Positions 13,227 through 40,841 of a DNA stretch of 64,000 nucleotides are shown here, in pieces (within the stretch, counting starts at the first letter, position 1; every line of letters starts with the position of its first letter). The stretch is from Herminiimonas sp. KBW02 (lineage in GTDB: Bacteria; Pseudomonadota; Gammaproteobacteria; Burkholderiales; Burkholderiaceae_D): the NCBI RefSeq assembly GCF_003852535.1, contig NZ_QAJP01000003.1:372001-436000 (forward strand), read 5' to 3'. The translations under genes and the position numbers were made by a program. The notes under the pieces are model-generated. The model searched no databases, was not told the DNA's origin, and saw nothing but the letters and a program-made list of their open reading frames with translations.

Positions 13227-13796
13227 ATGACACGTACACGTTGCAGCTGGGTCAATCTCGATAGTCCGCTTTATGTGGCTTATCACGACGAAGAGTGGGG
13301 CGTGCCCTGCCATGACGAAACGCGCTTGTTTGAGATGCTGAATCTCGAAGGTGCGCAAGCTGGTCTGAGCTGGCTGACCGTGCTGAACAAGCGTGAAAGT
13401 TATCGCGCCGCCTTTGACCAGTGGGATGCAGAGAAAATCGCGCGCTATGGTGACAAGAAAGTTGCGGAATTGCTGGCCAATCCCGGCATCATCCGCAACA
13501 AGCTCAAGGTCGCTGCCACCATAGGTAATGCCAGAGCTTATCTGCGTCTGCGCGATGAGGTCGGCGGCCTGGATCCCTATCTGTGGGCATACGTGGGTGG
13601 CAAGCCGATCAAAAACCGTTGGGCAACCATCAAGGATGCGCCGGTAAAGACGGAGTTATCGGATCAATTGTCCAAAGACCTGGCCAAACGCGGCTTCAAA
13701 TTTGTCGGGTCGACAATTATGTATGCATATATGCAGGCCATAGGCATGGTCAACGATCATACGGTCGACTGCTTTTGCTACAAGGGGAAGAAATAA
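13227..13796 (+). CDS. tag: DNA-3-methyladenine glycosylase I
   Basis: 189 residues with the full Tag pattern: RCSWVN at the start, YHDEEWGVPCHDE, LEGAQAGLSWLTVLNKRE with the catalytic Glu, and a C-terminal NDHTVDCFCY. The zinc ligands known from E. coli Tag (an N-terminal Cys and His and a C-terminal His-x3-Cys) are present. The enzyme excises 3-methyladenine from alkylated DNA in base excision repair. AGGA precedes the ATG. The 3' end lies 40 bases from the terminator of the first candidate sRNA, which is transcribed toward it. Confidence 0.96.
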   Translation: MTRTRCSWVNLDSPLYVAYHDEEWGVPCHDETRLFEMLNLEGAQAGLSWLTVLNKRESYRAAFDQWDAEKIARYGDKKVAELLANPGIIRNKLKVAATIGNARAYLRLRDEVGGLDPYLWAYVGGKPIKNRWATIKDAPVKTELSDQLSKDLAKRGFKFVGSTIMYAYMQAIGMVNDHTVDCFCYKGKK

Positions 13797-13836
13797 GGTG
13801 TAAGCCAGGCCTGGCGCGGCTGTGCGAGCGACAGGC

Positions 13837-13903
13837 AAAAAAAAGCCCGCTCAAAGAAGGCGGGCTGAATCTATATCAAAGGAGGAGACATAGAGGAGAC
13901 AAC
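13837..13903 (-). ncRNA. Candidate trans-acting sRNA, copy 1 (dual anti-SD motif)
   Basis: Read on the minus strand, a TATACT -10 box is followed after about seven bases by a transcript of about 65 nt. Its 5' half holds two CU-rich blocks (GUCUCCUC and GUCUCCUCC, three bases apart) that complement Shine-Dalgarno sequences, then a short AU-rich link. Its 3' half is a Rho-independent terminator: stem AGCCCGC/GCGGGCU at 13844-13866 and a run of eight U. This design resembles known anti-SD sRNAs (CcsR/cuckoo, AbcR, Neisseria sibling sRNAs). The family here is not one I can name, and expression is not shown by sequence alone. Confidence 0.65.
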
Positions 13904-13953
13904 TGAAGTATATGGATGGGCGCGCTTGCAGGCCACTTTCCTTTTCTGATATC
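13904..13953 (-). promoter_or_regulatory. Promoter region of candidate sRNA copy 1
   Basis: On the minus strand a TATACT -10 box (13907-13912) lies about 4-7 bases before the expected start. No TTGACA occurs 16-18 bases upstream. The upstream 40 bases (GATATC, GGAAAGTGG and a GC-rich stretch) are nearly identical in copy 2, which suggests an activator site or a non-housekeeping sigma factor. Confidence 0.45.
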
Positions 13954-14054
13954 CGATATTCACAATGCGAATATCTATGAAAATGGCTGTTTTGATATGT
14001 CAGTAAAGTGCTGCAAGAAGTGGCGAGAAGTTGGCAGATCGCTTATTCTTGGGC

Positions 14055-14119
14055 AAAAAAAAGCCCGCGCAGGTGGCGGGCTAAATCTATATCAAAGGAG
14101 GAGACATAGAGGAGACAAC
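14055..14119 (-). ncRNA. Candidate trans-acting sRNA, copy 2 (dual anti-SD motif)
   Basis: This has the same architecture as the unit at 13837. The -10 box TATACT is at 14123-14128 and the same two CU-rich anti-SD blocks follow. The AU-rich link and the terminator stem AGCCCGC/GCGGGCU at 14062-14082 end in eight U. The loop differs from copy 1 while the stem is kept, the pattern expected of a terminator under selection. The copies lie in tandem, each with its own promoter, so they would make two separate sibling RNAs. Confidence 0.65.
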
Positions 14120-14169
14120 TGAAGTATAGGGATGGGCGCGCCTGCAGGCCACTTTCCTTTTCTGATATC
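14120..14169 (-). promoter_or_regulatory. Promoter region of candidate sRNA copy 2
   Basis: It has the same TATACT box and upstream block as copy 1, with two substitutions (A to C just before the -10 box and A to G in the GC-rich stretch). Retention of bases beyond the -10 box implies a functional upstream element. Confidence 0.45.
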
Positions 14170-14464
14170 AGTTATAGAATTTTCATATATGGCAACTTTT
14201 TGCCGTAAAAGTCCCTTACAGCCTGTCTCTAAATCACAGTAACTGCTCACATACTGTCTTTATCTTTGTCACCTTCCGCGTACAAAAAGCCTCATAGATA
14301 TGTCAGCCCGACATCATTTCACCAGCTGAAACGCATTTTTCGCCTTCGGTGCACTTGCAAAATCTTTGCTAATATCCGCAGGCTGATGCAAAGCGATGCA
14401 GCGTTATGCATTGTTGTCGGTATCGCCACATCGCACTATGTGCCGGGCCGTGAAGTACAAGGAA

Positions 14465-14508
14465 GTGGGGACGACCCCACCGCTCCACCATCAATTGAGG
14501 ACGGCCTC
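14465..14508 (+). promoter_or_regulatory. Guanidine-II (mini-ykkC) riboswitch
   Basis: Two short hairpins show the class signature: GTGGGG-ACGA-CCCCAC at 14465-14480 and GAGG-ACGG-CCTC at 14497-14508. Each has the ACGR tetraloop that binds guanidinium. The second hairpin lies just ahead of the AGGAAG ribosome binding site of sugE, so ligand-dependent loop pairing would control access to it. Class, motif and downstream gene all agree. Confidence 0.93.
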
Positions 14509-14529
14509 GACACTATAGGAAGCAGCACT

Positions 14530-14844
14530 ATGTCTTGGACTATTCTGATTATTGCGGGTTTGTTTGAAATCGGCTGGGCGATCGGCCTGAAATACACCGA
14601 GGGTTTTACCCGGCTCTGGCCTACTGTCGGTACGGTACTGGCGATGGTGATCAGTGTCGCCTTGCTCGGCGTGGCGATGAAAACGCTGCCAGTAGGAACT
14701 GCGTATGCGGTCTGGACCGGTATCGGTACCGTCGGCACCGTCATTCTCGGCATGATTCTGCTGGGTGATGCAGTCACCGTGGTGCGCATACTCTGCATCA
14801 TGCTGATTGTTTCCGGTATCGCCGGTCTGAAGTACTTCAGCTAA
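14530..14844 (+). CDS. sugE: SMR family guanidinium exporter (Gdx/SugE)
   Basis: 104 residues with four membrane helices. The start at 14530 follows AGGAAG; the open frame extends upstream to 14266 but that part is the riboswitch leader. The essential Glu13 of small multidrug resistance proteins is present ([19 protein letters not shown]), and [11 protein letters not shown] and [12 protein letters not shown] are of the SugE/Gdx rather than the EmrE type. Gdx proteins export guanidinium in exchange for protons. The guanidine-II riboswitch directly upstream supports that substrate. Confidence 0.95.
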
Positions 14845-14861: not shown

Positions 14862-14891
14862 AAAAAACGGAGCTCAGCGCTCCGTTTTTTA
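14862..14891. terminator. Bidirectional terminator between sugE and the SET gene
   Basis: A stem AAAACGGAGC/GCTCCGTTTT with a short loop is flanked by A and T runs. It ends sugE on the plus strand and overlaps the stop of the convergent SET-domain gene. Confidence 0.88.
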
Positions 14892-15419
14892 TTTGTCTTT
14901 CTTTTTGCTCTTCTTTTTCTTCTTCGATGCTTTTTTCTCTTTCGGTGCCAGCATCGTGCCGCGGCAGCTTTCAGCGCCACAACGACATTCATAAGCTTTT
15001 TTCAATGCCTTGGTCTGACGATCTTCCACGATCAGGCCGTAGTCGTAATTGAATTCTTCACCGCGTTTGATATCGCGCAGCGTGTAGATATAGACGCGTC
15101 CTTTTTCTTCGCGTGCTTCGCAGTTTGGCTCGCAAGCATGATTGATCCAGCGCGCGTCGCTGCCGTCTGCACCACCATCGATCATTTTTCCGCTTTCGAG
15201 GCTGAAGAAAAAGGTGTGGTACGGATTTTCCGGATCGGTGCTGTGACGCTTGAGGGCTTCCTTGTCGCTGATGCGCTCGCCTTCGTACTCCAGCAGCATC
15301 GAATCAGCCTTGATATTGCGTGTCGCGAAAACGCCGCGGCCGTGTACCGGTGAATTTCTGACGAGGAATGCAGGTTTTTCTGATGATGCCGCAGTTGGGG
15401 TCTTGCTCAATTTGGTCAT
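14889..15419 (-). CDS. SET domain-containing protein
   Basis: 176 residues. The SET domain runs from about residue 17 (FLVRNSPVHGRGVFATRNI) to residue 130, with the cofactor-binding RWINHACEPNCEA and the catalytic-side GEEFNYDYGL. A post-SET Cys cluster follows (ECRCGAESCRGTML). The last 20 residues are almost all Lys and Ser with a few acidic ones. SET proteins transfer methyl groups from SAM to lysine; bacterial targets are mostly unknown. The basic tail could bind DNA, RNA or an acidic partner, or be a substrate itself. It is a single-gene unit. Confidence 0.92.
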   Translation of the reverse strand: MTKLSKTPTAASSEKPAFLVRNSPVHGRGVFATRNIKADSMLLEYEGERISDKEALKRHSTDPENPYHTFFFSLESGKMIDGGADGSDARWINHACEPNCEAREEKGRVYIYTLRDIKRGEEFNYDYGLIVEDRQTKALKKAYECRCGAESCRGTMLAPKEKKASKKKKKSKKKDK

Positions 15420-35581: not shown

Positions 35582-36115
35582 AGTCTCCTCCGGGGATGGG
35601 AATGGGTCTCAGAACGTTTTATATATTAATTATGTTCATCTAAGATATCACAAATATTTCTTTGCGCGATTTATTTGATGATTGCGTTAAATTGTTGCTC
35701 TGTGGAAGCTATCTTTCAGCCCGTAATTTAGCGGTTTTCCACGGAGTGTGAGCGCCCTCATAACCCTGATTGTCACTGCAAATGCCGTCCCTGCTACCTG
35801 CGCACTTCTTGCTGCGGCGTTCTCGCAACACCCGTCAACTTTATGCGACATCCGCCAGATGCCCAGTCCTGGTGCGGTTTTGGCGTTGTTGACACTTGTT
35901 TTGAAGTGCAAATCCATACTCCAGATACTTGTCGTATTTTGCCCGCGCGTCAATAAATTAAAATTTTCTGCAAAATTGATTGACACAACTAATATATGAG
36001 AAGAATATATCAATCAGGTGCAAAAAAGCGCCACCAACCAGACCGTGCATCACGAGTTTGCGCGGCTAAAAAACGAAGTTAAGAAAACGTCGTTAATAAA
36101 AATTAGGAGACAAAA
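35582..36115. other. Divergent AT-rich control region between the Liv and tct-mdc operons
   Basis: 534 bases with no convincing gene. AT-rich sequence lies at both ends, next to each start. A motif TAATATATRARAAnG-like is found on the plus strand at 35990-36003 and on the minus strand at 35616-35628, one ahead of each operon. It could be the binding site of the two related GntR regulators. Confidence 0.5.
35980..36010 (+). promoter_or_regulatory. Candidate promoter of the tct-mdc operon
   Basis: A perfect -35 TTGACA (35980-35985) is followed after 18-19 bases by ATATAT/TATATC. The -10 region overlaps the AT-rich motif at 35990-36003, so a bound regulator would block it. The predicted leader is about 100 bases long. 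Confidence 0.55.
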
Positions 36116-37120
36116 ATGTTGAATCGCCTTAACGTCGCACGCGCGTCGCTATCTGTCGTCGCCGCCGCCATGCTCTGTGCCCCGGCCTACGCATGGGAGC
36201 CAGGCAAAGCTGTAGAAATGGTGTTGCCATCCGGTAGTGGCAGCGGTACTGATCAAATGGCGCGCCTGATGTCCAGCATCGTGGTCAAGCACAGTCTGGC
36301 AAAAAAGCCGTACATCGTTACCCCTAAGGGTGGCGCAGGTGGTGCTGAAGGTTTCATCGATTTGAAAACCTCACCAGGTAATCCGCACAAAATCCTGATC
36401 TCTGCATCGCACATGTATATGTTGCCGCTGACTGCAGACGTTCCGTTCTCATGGAAAGACATGACGCCGGTCGCCAACCTGGTGATGGATGAATTCGTGC
36501 TGTGGGTGAATGCAGCTTCGCCATACAAAACGGCAGCTGAATTGCTCGCAGCGGCAAAAGCGCAGCCGGGTCAGATTCGCGCCGGTGGTGCAGGCTCCAA
36601 ACGTGAAGACAATTTGCTGTTTGCAGCTGTTGAACAAGCCGCAGGGGTGAAATTCAACTACATCCCATACAAAGGCGGCGGTGACGTGGCAACCCAGCTG
36701 GTCGGCAATCACATCGACGTTTCGGTCAATAATCCGGTCGAAGCAGTATCGCAATGGCGTGCCGGTCAGCTGCGCCCATTGTGCGTATTCGACGACAAGC
36801 CGATGGCACAAACCGAGAAAGTCACTACGACTGAATCCTGGTCCAGCATTCCTACCTGCAAATCGCAAGGCCTCAACGTTACTTATCTGATGCAACGCAG
36901 CGTGTTCCTGCCAACAGGAGTCAAGCCTGAGCAGGTTGCTTACTACGTTGATCAAATGAAGAAAATCGTTGCCACACCGGAGTGGGAAGAATTCTCCAAT
37001 CGCAATGCATTCAAGGATGCCTTCCTCACTGGTCCTGCCCTGCAGAAATTCCTGCAAACCGATGCCGACTTGCATTACGACTTGCTGAAAAAAGCTGGCT
37101 TCCTGGCCGCTGGCAAATAA
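36116..37120 (+). CDS. tctC: TctC-type substrate-binding protein (probably malonate)
   Basis: 334 residues. A signal peptide ends near APAYAWEPG. The mature protein shows the TctC/BugD pattern: EMVLPSGSGSGTDQMARLM, TPKGGAGGAEGF, and FNYIPYKGGGDVATQLVGNH with HIDVSVNNPVEA. These are periplasmic carboxylate-binding proteins of tripartite tricarboxylate transporters. The operon continues without a break into the malonate decarboxylase genes, so malonate is the likely ligand. The ribosome binding region AGGAGACAA (36105-36113) matches the candidate sRNA target. Confidence 0.92.
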   Translation: MLNRLNVARASLSVVAAAMLCAPAYAWEPGKAVEMVLPSGSGSGTDQMARLMSSIVVKHSLAKKPYIVTPKGGAGGAEGFIDLKTSPGNPHKILISASHMYMLPLTADVPFSWKDMTPVANLVMDEFVLWVNAASPYKTAAELLAAAKAQPGQIRAGGAGSKREDNLLFAAVEQAAGVKFNYIPYKGGGDVATQLVGNHIDVSVNNPVEAVSQWRAGQLRPLCVFDDKPMAQTEKVTTTESWSSIPTCKSQGLNVTYLMQRSVFLPTGVKPEQVAYYVDQMKKIVATPEWEEFSNRNAFKDAFLTGPALQKFLQTDADLHYDLLKKAGFLAAGK

Positions 37121-37133
37121 ACGGAGCAGCAAC

Positions 37134-37640
37134 ATGGATAGCAATCAAAAAGAAGACCGTGTTCTCATCAAGCACGGTGTGGCGGAGTTCGCCTGCGCCC
37201 TGGCATTCATGATTGCCGGTGGTTTGCTGATCTGGGACAGCTACCACCGGGGCGCAGGCTGGGGAAGTGCCGGACCGAAGTCCGGTTACTTCCCGTTCCG
37301 CATCGGCATCATCATGTGCATCGCTGCTGCGGTCGTGATGTTCAACGCGACCCGCAGCAAAGCCATCAACAGTTCATCGTTTGTCACACGTGGTGAACTC
37401 AAGCCAGTGCTGCAGGTACTGGCACCGATACTCGGCTTTGTCGCGATAGCACAATTCCTCGGCATGTACATCGCAGCACTGGCACTCATCGCAGGCTTCA
37501 TGCGCGTACTCGGCAAATACAGCTGGCTGAAGTCATTGACGGTAGGTTTGTCGGTAGTGGCAGTCGTGTTCTGGCTGTTTGAAATTCAATTCATGGTTCC
37601 GTTGATCAAGGGCCCGCTTGAAGCGGCATTCGGCTACTGA
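37134..37640 (+). CDS. tctB: TctB-type small membrane subunit
   Basis: 168 residues with four membrane helices (ACALAFMIAGGLLIWD, FRIGIIMCIAAAVVMF, QVLAPILGFVAIAQFLGM, and a C-terminal pair). The DUF1468/TctB pattern GPKSGYFPFRIG is present. It starts 13 bases after tctC. TctB is the small subunit that completes the channel with TctA in tripartite tricarboxylate transporters. Confidence 0.9.
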   Translation: MDSNQKEDRVLIKHGVAEFACALAFMIAGGLLIWDSYHRGAGWGSAGPKSGYFPFRIGIIMCIAAAVVMFNATRSKAINSSSFVTRGELKPVLQVLAPILGFVAIAQFLGMYIAALALIAGFMRVLGKYSWLKSLTVGLSVVAVVFWLFEIQFMVPLIKGPLEAAFGY

Positions 37641-37677
37641 ATCTCGCTAAAAAAGATATCCATAGAAGGAGACATTC

Positions 37678-39186
37678 ATGGAAGAGCTGGGCTATTTGAT
37701 GCATGGGTTTTCTGTCGCCCTTACGGGACAGCATATTTTAATGATGTTCATAGGCGTCACGCTGGGCATCCTGATCGGCGTATTGCCGGGGCTGGGTGGG
37801 CCGAACGGCGTGGCGATCCTGTTGCCGCTGACGTTTTCGATGGAGCCGACCGCCGGCATCATCCTCTTGTCCTGCCTGTACTGGGGCGCCTTGTTCGGCG
37901 GTGCGATCACCTCCATCCTGTTCAACATTCCGGGTGAACCGTGGTCGGTCGCGACGACGTTTGACGGTTATCCGATGGCGCAGAAAGGCAAGGCCGGGGA
38001 AGCGTTAACGGCCGCTTTCAGCGGTTCGTTCATCGGCGCATTCTTTTCAGTCGTACTGATTACCTTCCTGGCACCGCTGGTTGCTTCGTTCGCTTTGAAA
38101 TTCGGTCCGCCGGAATTCTTCGCGGTGTACTTGCTGACCTTCTGCAGTTTCGTCGGCATGGGTGGTGGCTCGCCATTCAAGACCATACTTGTGATGATGC
38201 TGGGCTTTGGCCTCGCCACCATCGGTATGGATACCATCACCGGCGGCTTGCGTATGACTTTCGGCTTCGATGAGTTGCTGCGCGGCGTAGACTTCCTGAT
38301 CGTCGTGATCGGTTTGTTCGGTATCGGTGAAATCCTGTTGACGATGGAAGAAGGTCTGGCCTTCCGCGGCAAGCAGGCAGGTATCAACCTGAAAGTGGTA
38401 TTGCAAACCTGGCGTCAGTTGCCGCGCTACTGGGCATCGCTGGTGCGTAGCTGGGTGGTAGGTGCGTGGATGGGCGTGACGCCTGGCGGCGCTACGGCTG
38501 CTTCCTTTATGGGCTACGGTATCGCACGTCGCTTCTCGAAAGAGAAAGACCAGTTCGGTAAAGGCAGCCTGGAAGGTGTGATCGCACCGGAAACAGCGGC
38601 GCACGCATCCGGCACGACCGCCTTGCTGCCTATGCTGGCGCTCGGCATTCCGGGTTCGGCTACTGCTGCGGTTTTGCTCGGTGGTCTGATGGTGTGGGGT
38701 TTGCAACCGGGCCCTATGCTTTTCGTTGAGCAAAAGGATTTCGTCTGGGGCCTGATCGCCAGTATGTATCTCGGTAACATCGTCGGCCTGATTGTGGTGC
38801 TGAGTACTGTGCCATTCTTCGCTGCCATCCTGCGTGTACCGTTCACCATTGTTGCGCCTGTCATCATCCTGCTGTGTGCAATCGGTGCTTATACCGTGCA
38901 CGGCGCGATGTTCGATGTCTGGCTGATGGTGGTATTCGGTATTATCGGTTATGTACTGAAGAAACTCGACTACCCGCTGGCACCGCTGGTACTGGCGATG
39001 GTGCTGGGTGACAAGGCAGAAGATGCGTTCCGTCAAACCATGCTCCTGTCGCATGGCGGCATGGAAATTTTCTGGTCCAACTACCTGGTCGGTTCCATCA
39101 CGACGCTGGCGCTGATCACATTGATGTGGCCAGTCATCTCCGGCCTCTTCAGCAAGCGGTCTAAAGTGGTGGAGGTGGCAGCATGA
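37678..39186 (+). CDS. tctA: TctA-type large membrane subunit
   Basis: 502 residues with about 11 or 12 helices. The TctA signatures are clear: GVLPGLGGPNGVAILLPLTF near residue 38, YWGALFGGAITSILFNIPGE, and the second repeat GAWMGVTPGGATAASFMGYG followed by GIPGSATAAVLLGGLMVWG. The stop overlaps the mdcA start by four bases (ATGA), which couples transporter and enzyme translation. The AGGAGACAT at 37667-37675 is a second match to the candidate sRNA target. Confidence 0.94.
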   Translation: MEELGYLMHGFSVALTGQHILMMFIGVTLGILIGVLPGLGGPNGVAILLPLTFSMEPTAGIILLSCLYWGALFGGAITSILFNIPGEPWSVATTFDGYPMAQKGKAGEALTAAFSGSFIGAFFSVVLITFLAPLVASFALKFGPPEFFAVYLLTFCSFVGMGGGSPFKTILVMMLGFGLATIGMDTITGGLRMTFGFDELLRGVDFLIVVIGLFGIGEILLTMEEGLAFRGKQAGINLKVVLQTWRQLPRYWASLVRSWVVGAWMGVTPGGATAASFMGYGIARRFSKEKDQFGKGSLEGVIAPETAAHASGTTALLPMLALGIPGSATAAVLLGGLMVWGLQPGPMLFVEQKDFVWGLIASMYLGNIVGLIVVLSTVPFFAAILRVPFTIVAPVIILLCAIGAYTVHGAMFDVWLMVVFGIIGYVLKKLDYPLAPLVLAMVLGDKAEDAFRQTMLLSHGGMEIFWSNYLVGSITTLALITLMWPVISGLFSKRSKVVEVAA

Positions 39187-40841
39187 AAATGTCCCCGGAC
39201 TTCCACTGGGATACGCTGGCCCGCAACACTGCGACGCGCCTCAGGCGCGGTGCGTCGCACGCCAGCGGCAAGGTCGTCGCCGCCGAAAACATCGCCGCCC
39301 TGCTGCATGCGGTGATCGAATCCGGTGATCGTGTGTGCGTCGAAGGCAATAACCAGAAGCATGCGGACTTCCTCGCTACGGCCTTGTCTAAAATGGATGC
39401 GAATCTGGTGCATGACCTGCACATCATTCAATCCAATCTGGCACTGGCTGCGCATCTGGATGTATTCGAACGCGGCGTCGCTTCGCGGCTGGATTTTTGC
39501 TATTCCGGCGATCAGGGTGTGCGCCTCGCACGTCTGATCAAGGCGGGCAAGATCAATGTCGGTGCGATCCATACTTACCTTGAGTTGTATGGTCGCTACT
39601 TCATGGACCTGACGCCACGTGTCTCGCTGATCGCGGCGCAAAGTGCAGATGCCAACGGCAATCTCTATACAGGTCCGAATACAGAAGACACGCCAGCAGT
39701 GGCGGAAGGTACCGCCTTCAAGAACGGCATCATCATCGCGCAGGTTAACGAAATCGTTGATACTGTGCCGCGCGTTGACGTGCCGGGTGACTGGGTATCG
39801 TATGTGGTGCAGGCGCCGAAGCCGCATTACATCGAACCTATCTTCACGCGCGATCCGGCCCAGATTACCGAAACGCAAATCCTGATGGCGATGATGGTCA
39901 TCAAGGGTTTGTATGCACCGTATGGCGTCACCCGTCTGAATCATGGCATCGGCTTCGATACTGCAGCGATAGAACTGATCCTGCCGACATACGCAGAGTC
40001 ACTCGGTCTGCGCGGCAAGATCTGTAATTACATGACGGTCAATCCATGCCCGACGCTGATCCCGGCCATCGAATCCGGTTTCGTCAAAGGCATACATTGC
40101 GCCGGTTCCGAGCTCGGCATGGAAGAGTATGTGCGGGCACGCCCTGACGTCTTCTTCAACGGACCGGATGGCAGCATGCGTTCGAATCGCGTGTTTTGCC
40201 AGATTGCAGGTCATTATTCGGATCTGTTCATAGGCTCGACCCTGCAAGTCGATACGCAGGGCAATAGCTCGACCGCTACCCTCAACCGCATCACCGGTTT
40301 TGGTGGCGCGCCCAACTTCGGTTCCGAGTCACGTGCACGCCGTCATGTCAGCTATCCATGGCTGAAGGCAGGCGAAGAGGCGGCGCAAGCTACCGGTGCC
40401 ACCATGCCGCGCGGCCGCAAACTGGTGGTGCAGATGGTCGAATCCTTTCGCGAAAAAATGAGCCCGACTTTCACCGAGAAACTGGATGCCTGGCAGCTGA
40501 TGGAAGACCTTTCACTCGAGCTGCCGCCGGTCATGGTCTATGGCGATGACGTCACCCAAATCGTGACCGAAGAAGGGATCGCGCATCTGCATAAATGCAG
40601 CAACCCGCAGGAGCGTGAGCAAGCGGTGCGCGGCGTTGCAGGATTTACCGCAGTCGGCCTCAAGCGCGACCAGCGCGTGGTCGACAACCTGCGCGACCGC
40701 GGCGTGATCCAGCGGCCGGAAGACATAGGCGTCGATGTATCGCTGGCGACACGCGATTTGCTGGCCGCCAAGTCCATGAAGGATTTGGTCAGATGGTCGG
40801 GCAATCTCTATCAACCACCAAACAGATTCAGAAACTGGTAG
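39183..40841 (+). CDS. mdcA: Malonate decarboxylase alpha subunit (acetyl-ACP:malonate ACP transferase)
   Basis: 552 residues, the usual MdcA length. It swaps malonate for acetate on the acyl carrier subunit to form malonyl-ACP in the cytoplasm. Characteristic stretches include VCVEGNNQKHADFLATALSK, VSLIAAQSADANGNLYTGPN, NHGIGFDTAAIELILPTYAE and the C-terminal KSMKDLVRWSGNLYQPP. It overlaps tctA by four bases and is followed after six bases by mdcC. Complete and in frame. Confidence 0.96.
   Translation: MKMSPDFHWDTLARNTATRLRRGASHASGKVVAAENIAALLHAVIESGDRVCVEGNNQKHADFLATALSKMDANLVHDLHIIQSNLALAAHLDVFERGVASRLDFCYSGDQGVRLARLIKAGKINVGAIHTYLELYGRYFMDLTPRVSLIAAQSADANGNLYTGPNTEDTPAVAEGTAFKNGIIIAQVNEIVDTVPRVDVPGDWVSYVVQAPKPHYIEPIFTRDPAQITETQILMAMMVIKGLYAPYGVTRLNHGIGFDTAAIELILPTYAESLGLRGKICNYMTVNPCPTLIPAIESGFVKGIHCAGSELGMEEYVRARPDVFFNGPDGSMRSNRVFCQIAGHYSDLFIGSTLQVDTQGNSSTATLNRITGFGGAPNFGSESRARRHVSYPWLKAGEEAAQATGATMPRGRKLVVQMVESFREKMSPTFTEKLDAWQLMEDLSLELPPVMVYGDDVTQIVTEEGIAHLHKCSNPQEREQAVRGVAGFTAVGLKRDQRVVDNLRDRGVIQRPEDIGVDVSLATRDLLAAKSMKDLVRWSGNLYQPPNRFRNW

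Follow-up and report, generated by a model that had tools for sequence, protein, structure and literature searches.

A window of 64,000 nucleotides of the Herminiimonas sp. KBW02 genome (the whole stretch of DNA analyzed here) contains two closely similar units on the minus strand beside a tag-like gene. They had been read in an initial annotation as sibling small RNAs (sRNAs) of a kind not known from this genus, with an anti-ribosome-binding-site design, that would block the initiation of translation of many mRNAs. The locus raises the question of what kind of RNA these units are, which messages they might act upon and what might control them. The features involved are listed in Table 1.

TABLE 1 Twin sRNA locus and predicted target genes in the window
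Feature	Position	Strand	Remarks
tag-like methyladenine glycosylase gene	13227..13796	+	Flank in 13/13 genus genomes; neighbor, outside the system
Rho-independent terminator, copy 2	13837..13866	-	From sequence and fold
sRNA copy 2	13837..13901	-	RF02278, 70.4 bits; fold, -21.9 kcal/mol
-10 box TATACT, copy 2	13907..13912	-
LysR-type operator-like element, copy 2	13933..13975	-	GATATTC-N7-GAATATC inverted repeat plus GATAT
sRNA copy 1, transcribed first (predicted)	14055..14117	-	RF02278, 67.4 bits; fold, -21.0 kcal/mol; 5' tail UGUCUCC, hairpin 1 with UCCUCCUUU loop, terminator hairpin, U8
Rho-independent terminator stem, copy 1	14062..14082	-	From simple terminator scan
-10 box TATACT, copy 1	14123..14128	-	Start of identical block
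LysR-type operator-like element, copy 1	14149..14191	-	T-N11-A box, half site GATAT, AT-rich run to -35
SET-domain gene	14889..15419	-	Other flank in 13/13 genus genomes; neighbor, outside the system
GGAGACA, predicted target site of tctC	36106..36112	+	3 nt before start; full complement of UGUCUCC
tctC (PF03401), predicted target	36116..37120	+
tctB (PF07331)	37134-37640		Between tctC and tctA
GGAGACA, second predicted site in same gene row	37668..37674	+	Before tctA
tctA (PF01970), predicted target	37678..39186	+

The twin units, their family and their locus

Read on the minus strand, each of the two units carries TATACT, the CU-rich blocks GUCUCCUC and GUCUCCUCC, a GC stem and then 8 U, as had been described in the annotation. 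They lie in a direct repeat of 121 nt (13839-13959 and 14055-14175; 88% identity, start-to-start distance of 216), and from GATATC (14169/13953) to the terminator loop they differ at three positions only, a count that was correct from the start, while the longest identical block (14128-14084/13912-13868) measures 45 nt instead of the 46 bases claimed. The 5' tail of both is GUUGUCUCC, followed by a hairpin of 8 pairs exposing UCCUCCUUU in its loop; copy 2 has the design of copy 1, with a different terminator loop. Fold z-scores were -5.65 and -5.15, with none of 200 shuffles folding equally well, and a covariance model that we built and ran with default filters found the two units as its sole matches in the window at an E value of ≤1. 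A simple terminator scan detected the stem of the copy at 14055 and missed that of the copy at 13837. The sigma-70 scan of 13750-14550 gave 0 consensus promoters (shuffle mean, 1.3), because the -35 of the twins is poor.

By sequence and structure, both units are members of a known Rfam family, RF02278 (Betaproteobacteria toxic small RNA; gathering score, 50), which they match over its full length (1-64) with E values of 3.5e-12 and 2e-11 for the whole window. Their predicted folds have the two hairpins and the single-stranded UGUCUCC 5' end of the family. Over the two units no other Rfam family reached its gathering score, and the only other above-threshold match in the window was a Guanidine-II riboswitch. 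Identity with anti-hemB (RF02837; at most 26.7 bits versus a gathering score of 49.5) or suhB/mmgR (RF00519; at most 24.5 versus 41) was rejected, as was an attenuator or leader reading (Trp_leader, 29 of 41 bits). The combination of repeat, fold and family match is not due to chance. The sibling sRNA reading with its anti-ribosome-binding-site design is supported by these results, but not the claim that the kind was unreported, since RF02278 sRNAs are described from Burkholderia and Herbaspirillum in the available parts of three reports (PMC4603805, PMC5688073, PMC7011215). What is novel at this locus is the tandem arrangement and the likely wiring, not the kind of sRNA.

The KBW02 genome has four RF02278 matches, the tandem pair and two elsewhere. 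The third (L003; G000:C11:448492-448555) scored 56.4 bits, and the fourth (L004; G000:C13:69656-69720) is weak, at 34 bits and below the cut-off, with AUCCUCCUC at its 5' end where UGUCUCCUC stands otherwise; it is perhaps a decayed or retargeted copy. Matches were found in 48 of 60 relatives (above the cut-off in 40 of the 60) and, across the order, in 244 of 399 sampled genomes at an E value of ≤0.001 (144/399 above the curated cut-off), while none of 14 control genomes had one. Copy number varies widely within one bacterial family, with up to 19 matches in one genome (G034) and 12 each in two others (G014 and G017). One locus of G017 (L128; G017:C113:125500-142200) has six copies on one strand within 16 kb, next to genes for a STAND NTPase, a LysR-type protein, an MFS protein and a metE-like protein, and looks like the product of repeated local copying. 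Another genome has three near-identical copies spaced by 185 nt (L136; G026:C1:960600-962000), so tandem arrays of the family arose elsewhere too.

In the consensus of 40 diverse members, hairpin 1 has six pairs, four of which have changed on both sides with pairing kept. To compare the two CU-rich blocks we used 135 units from 52 genomes, hand-picked among the matches listed; GUCUCC of the 5' tail was present in 132 of the 135 units (full UGUCUCC in 120/135), a set found with the RF02278 family model, which favors the tail, and CCUCC of the loop region in 94/135. The two blocks noted initially are thus unequally kept, and the difference suggests that RF02278 sRNAs work mainly through the tail.

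The head-to-tail pair is present in all 13 genus genomes (KBW02 and G001 to G012), with the copies 206 to 228 nt apart and the same two flanking genes. A block of 32 nt, TGTCTCCTCTATGTCTCCTCCTTTGATATAGA, is identical in all 26 tandem copies of these 13 genomes, whereas the sequence 70 to 110 bp above the -10 box has an identity of 0.29 to 0.30 between genus orthologues, near random. Invariance of the block next to saturated upstream sequence points to strong purifying selection. The -10 box is also kept (identity of 0.97 to 1.0 between orthologues). The -35/-10 spacer had an identity of 0.453 between the copies of one genome versus 0.388 between first and second copies across genomes; first- and second-copy spacers are alike in KBW02 and G005 but unlike in G001, G002 and others, and the likeness of the two KBW02 promoters is probably due in part to local gene conversion.

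Outside this group, the placement beside tag is rare: only 3 of 80 named tag loci had an RF02278 match (pairs at L039 and L044, one copy at L052), the other 77 having none in the flanks examined. One tag gene, on a contig labeled as an Anaerolineae metagenome-assembled genome (L092), is 66% identical to the betaproteobacterial tag in the window, perhaps because of a binning error. On the other side of the pair, the Guanidine-II riboswitch (window 14463-14509, plus strand, 45.8 bits) lies ahead of a small multidrug resistance gene (14530-14844; PF00893) of the Gdx/SugE type by context. Together they are an ordinary guanidine exporter unit, whose gene was detected at 9 of the 13 genus loci.

Predicted targets of the 5' tail

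The complement of the tail UGUCUCC is GGAGACA, and GGAGACA-N2-11-ATG occurs at 66 places in the KBW02 genome (one of them antisense in the sRNA locus and one site counted twice) compared to 13 for the reversed pattern; in G006 the numbers were 51 and 9. Among 375 background starts, crudely predicted by a longest-ORF rule, only 3 were preceded by GGAGACA and 1 by GGAGGAG. The "many mRNAs" proposed initially is thus too broad, the genome-wide set of sites being rich in uptake genes. Of the 42 open reading frames of ≥90 amino acids that follow GGAGACA, 40 were scanned with Pfam, and 17 of these belonged to the uptake class of porins, permeases, transporter subunits and binding proteins: six TctC, TctA, DctP, DctQ, two porins, two Xan_ur, two MFS, Bmp and SBP_bac_3. 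Others include malate synthase, a citrate synthase, COX1, a CoA transferase and a transketolase-domain protein that by eye resembles AceE. For a GGAGAAG control (72 places; 30 loci plus those in a 400-kb stretch, with 10 of 13 open reading frames scanned), 1 of 10 was a transport protein, a difference from 17/40 that is not significant (Fisher P = 0.07). At least four target orthologues are common to KBW02 and G006, with 78 to 86% protein identity, namely an MFS protein, a TctC, an FAA hydrolase and a DUF1097 protein.

The strongest target test is the comparison of TctC (organic-acid receptor) genes. KBW02 has eight, six of which have GGAGACA 2 to 11 nt before the start and two of which do not. 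The six encoded proteins are only 23 to 58% identical to each other, so the sites are not recent copies. In the 12 other genus genomes GGAGACA was found in 46 of 68 TctC genes, with GGAGAC in 5 more. Of ten RF02278-negative genomes, which belong to other genera and differ in composition, four had TctC (144 matches, 30 read), and GGAGACA preceded 1 of the 30 loci read, that one starting with GTG. One group of strong TctC matches, for which we assumed orthology, has AAGGAT in 9 of 13 genomes and GGAGACA in none, which argues for seed specificity. The TctC enrichment had a P value of about 1e-9, assuming 3,000 to 3,400 genes, with TctC chosen after the target list was seen and with genus orthologues that are not independent. 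Seed duplex energies at the six sites ranged from -12.8 to -17.4 kcal/mol, values matched by 0 to 2.4% of the 375 background starts, and the loop block did not pair unusually strongly with tctC by duplex energy. The data as a whole suggest that the tail acts as a seed for GGAGACA ribosome-binding sites and not as a general brake. In the window, genes for TctC, TctB, TctA and a malonate decarboxylase alpha subunit stand in a row (36116-40841), probably a cluster for the uptake and use of malonate.

Putative control and alternative readings

Above the -35 of each twin lies a conserved 43-bp element, whose best form is GATATTC-N7-GAATATC-N-GATATC followed by AAA runs. In a pattern search of the whole genome, copy 2 was the only match with zero mismatches, and copy 1 had one mismatch. 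In the published description of LysR-type operators, a T-N11-A box lies around -65 and another site around -35 (PMC8407307), and the twin promoters have this layout. A profile of the 26 tandem promoters of the genus gave a background maximum of 4.0 over 800,000 positions; all 26 promoters exceeded it, also when the genome of the promoter being scored was left out of the profile (25.9 to 61.6). The element scored above background at 37 of 78 scored RF02278 copies from other genera of the family and at none of 10 single copies of the genus, so that joint control of all KBW02 copies is not supported.

With one mismatch, the element also occurs in the divergent promoter of a LysR-type gene of KBW02 (L201; score of 30.4). 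The orthologues of this gene in the genus are 90 to 100% identical, and in the 260 bp of divergent promoter scanned the element was present in 12 of 12 genus genomes (6.5 to 36.6). It was also found in 5 of 7 other genomes of the family; in G030 it was weak, and it was absent from the 260 bp scanned at the G013 orthologue and at two further paralogues of G027. The other one-mismatch matches were rejected as a regulon, since the total of 14 compares with 9 for the reversed control and they are mostly noise; orthologues were followed for the LysR promoter only. The nearest NCBIfam model to the LysR protein (P0001) is BsrA, at 212 of 480 bits and far below the cut-off. BysR binds AT-N11-AT boxes (PMC10100970) and BsrA controls an sRNA (PMC8407307), precedents that, as analogies from the available parts of the reports, fit the picture of a LysR-type protein and an sRNA without proving it. 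Divergent from the LysR gene is a gene for a protein of 162 amino acids (P0002; L201:1613-2101, plus strand) with the motif repeat FALNRKANQIAQTQP..AAxLRM and no known family in Pfam and NCBIfam scans; the sequence after the element differs in length and letters among orthologues. Two LysR promoters (L477 in G017 and L479 in G030) have TTGC-N3-GCA ahead of TATAGT, as do many sRNA promoters.

A second type of site, similar to that of PhbF/PhaR, falls on the promoter hexamers of many RF02278 genes or in the interval that separates them. The PhbF site has been given as TG[N]TGC[N]3GCAA (PMC3206438). TGC-N3-GCA was found within -46 to -9 of 24 of 109 nontandem units (shuffle mean, 1.6; maximum, 5), often at -21/-22 or -33/-34, and the third KBW02 copy has it at -21. 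This suggests, as a prediction, that many RF02278 genes answer to the polyhydroxybutyrate store. As a feature of the tandem promoters the site was rejected (strict pattern, 0/26), while a relaxed pattern occurred in 6 of 26 (shuffle mean, 0.4), and some of these promoters may contain a degenerate remnant.

Our main reading, with a probability of about two in three, is that the tail of these RF02278 twins blocks GGAGACA-type ribosome-binding sites of a limited uptake set under LysR control. Each unit would be transcribed into an RNA of about 65 to 68 nt in which a single-stranded 5' tail is followed by a hairpin and the terminator. With its sequence GUUGUCUCC, the tail would pair over GGAGACA start regions, presumably with the help of Hfq, and block the entry of ribosomes. 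The mRNAs repressed would be mainly those of receptors and permeases for carbon sources, organic acids among them, and in addition those of some genes of central carbon metabolism. Since the seed is common to both copies, they would act as a dose on one target set. As the promoters combine a good -10 with a poor -35 and have a LysR-type element directly above them, sRNA output would most likely follow the ligand of the LysR-type protein; a single conserved regulator, for which the L201 gene is the candidate, most likely controls the twins, activation being the more likely direction. More tentatively, and at slightly below even odds, we propose that in Herminiimonas/Oxalicibacterium one LysR-type regulator and a fixed RF02278 pair form a hard-wired brake on carbon uptake through most TctC-type ribosome-binding sites, to which the wider family adds a PhbF/PhaR-like operator (TGC-N3-GCA).

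The same RNAs and targets could be combined with another regulator, or with several LysR-type proteins, at the element, the LysR gene itself being a target. T-N11-A boxes are common to LysR-type proteins in general, many such sites are bound by BsrA and by BysR (PMC8407307, PMC10100970), and 37 of the 78 copies scored from the family's other genera have the element upstream. We nevertheless consider this rather unlikely, because one LysR gene has the element in its divergent promoter, in KBW02 and in 12/12 genus orthologues, and such a promoter is the usual place of a regulator's own site. Less probable still is a general translation brake, in which the RNA mimics the 16S 3' tail through CCUCCUUU, binds any strong Shine-Dalgarno sequence and slows growth overall, in keeping with the label "toxic." The 16S 3' tail contains CCUCCUUU, as does the sRNA loop. 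Overexpression of such sRNAs is reported to slow the growth of Escherichia coli and Burkholderia cenocepacia (PMC4603805, PMC5688073). However, the block that would do the mimicking is the less conserved one (loop CCUCC in 94/135 units versus tail GUCUCC in 132/135), the TctC sites fit the tail whereas their loop energies are unremarkable, and GGAGACA precedes 3/375 starts and GGAGGAG 1/375; on the first of these two counts we rejected the general brake as the main role.

Two further readings deny the units a role as trans-acting sRNAs. As the end of copy 2 faces tag and lies about 40 nt from its stop codon, the units might act only in cis, as paired terminators or insulators at the tag 3' end or as a control region of the guanidine exporter. 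This is very improbable given that the seed, and not the terminator alone, is identical in 26/26 copies, that the exporter gene is in 9/13 genus loci compared to 13 for the pair and that two more family matches lie elsewhere in the genome. The chance that they are a scattered, functionless intergenic repeat seems negligible in spite of the 19 matches in one relative (G034): a scattered element with no conserved promoter or terminator, the finding that the annotation had named as fatal to its own reading, is contradicted by the orthologous locus in 13/13 genomes, the covariation and the identical seed.

Relation to known systems

Sibling CU-rich sRNAs with a like logic are the AbcR RNAs of rhizobia and the CcsR/cuckoo RNAs of Rhodobacter. 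The NmsR/NgncR RNAs of Neisseria are likened to the Herminiimonas pair by description, being tandem twins with two CU-rich blocks and metabolic targets (Sass 2017; PMC13104608); the Herminiimonas pair likewise consists of tandem twins with two CU-rich unpaired blocks. S17 of Bordetella pertussis, again likened by description, has a conserved 5' site for pairing with ribosome-binding sites and transporter targets, and its authors relate it to the RF02278 family (PMC11722255). Direct repression, the step proposed for the twins, was proved for one S17 target by compensatory changes in that site (PMC11722255). Unlike the twins, S17 is a single gene with an abundant short form from RNase E processing. 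In E. coli it was found not similarly toxic (PMC11722255). Hsnc059, Hsnc063, Hsnc086 and Hsnc107 of Herbaspirillum seropedicae are RF02278 members from the same bacterial family as KBW02; the available part of that report mentions no tandem, target or regulator for them, in contrast to those predicted for the twins (PMC7011215).

The double-hairpin sRNAs of RF02278 are known from Burkholderia by differential RNA sequencing (dRNA-seq) and Northern blotting (PMC4603805, PMC5688073). Like the twins, ncS03, ncS05, ncS27 and ncS62 form a sequence and structure family with a CU-rich tail and loop, with predicted pairing to ribosome-binding sites and predicted carbon-transport targets (PMC5688073). 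They are stated to be nontandem, and a common upstream motif is mentioned for three of the four (PMC5688073). The Herminiimonas copies, in contrast, form a tandem pair that is conserved and has a LysR-type element. Within the literature searched, which covered few subscription journals and was available in part, there was no report of the tandem pair, of its LysR element or of a PhbF site at RF02278 genes. The 2017 study called the control of Burkholderia sRNA accumulation unknown (PMC5688073). If the proposal of a hard-wired brake is true, it would explain the control and purpose of these "toxic" sRNAs, and the PhbF/PhaR-like operator would tie the brake on uptake to the state of the polyhydroxybutyrate store. 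What the Herminiimonas locus adds is a candidate for the regulator, a set of candidate targets marked by a readable code (GGAGACA) and, in the tandem, a compact system; through it the "toxicity" of RF02278 sRNAs could be recast as an overdose of a repressor of nutrient uptake.
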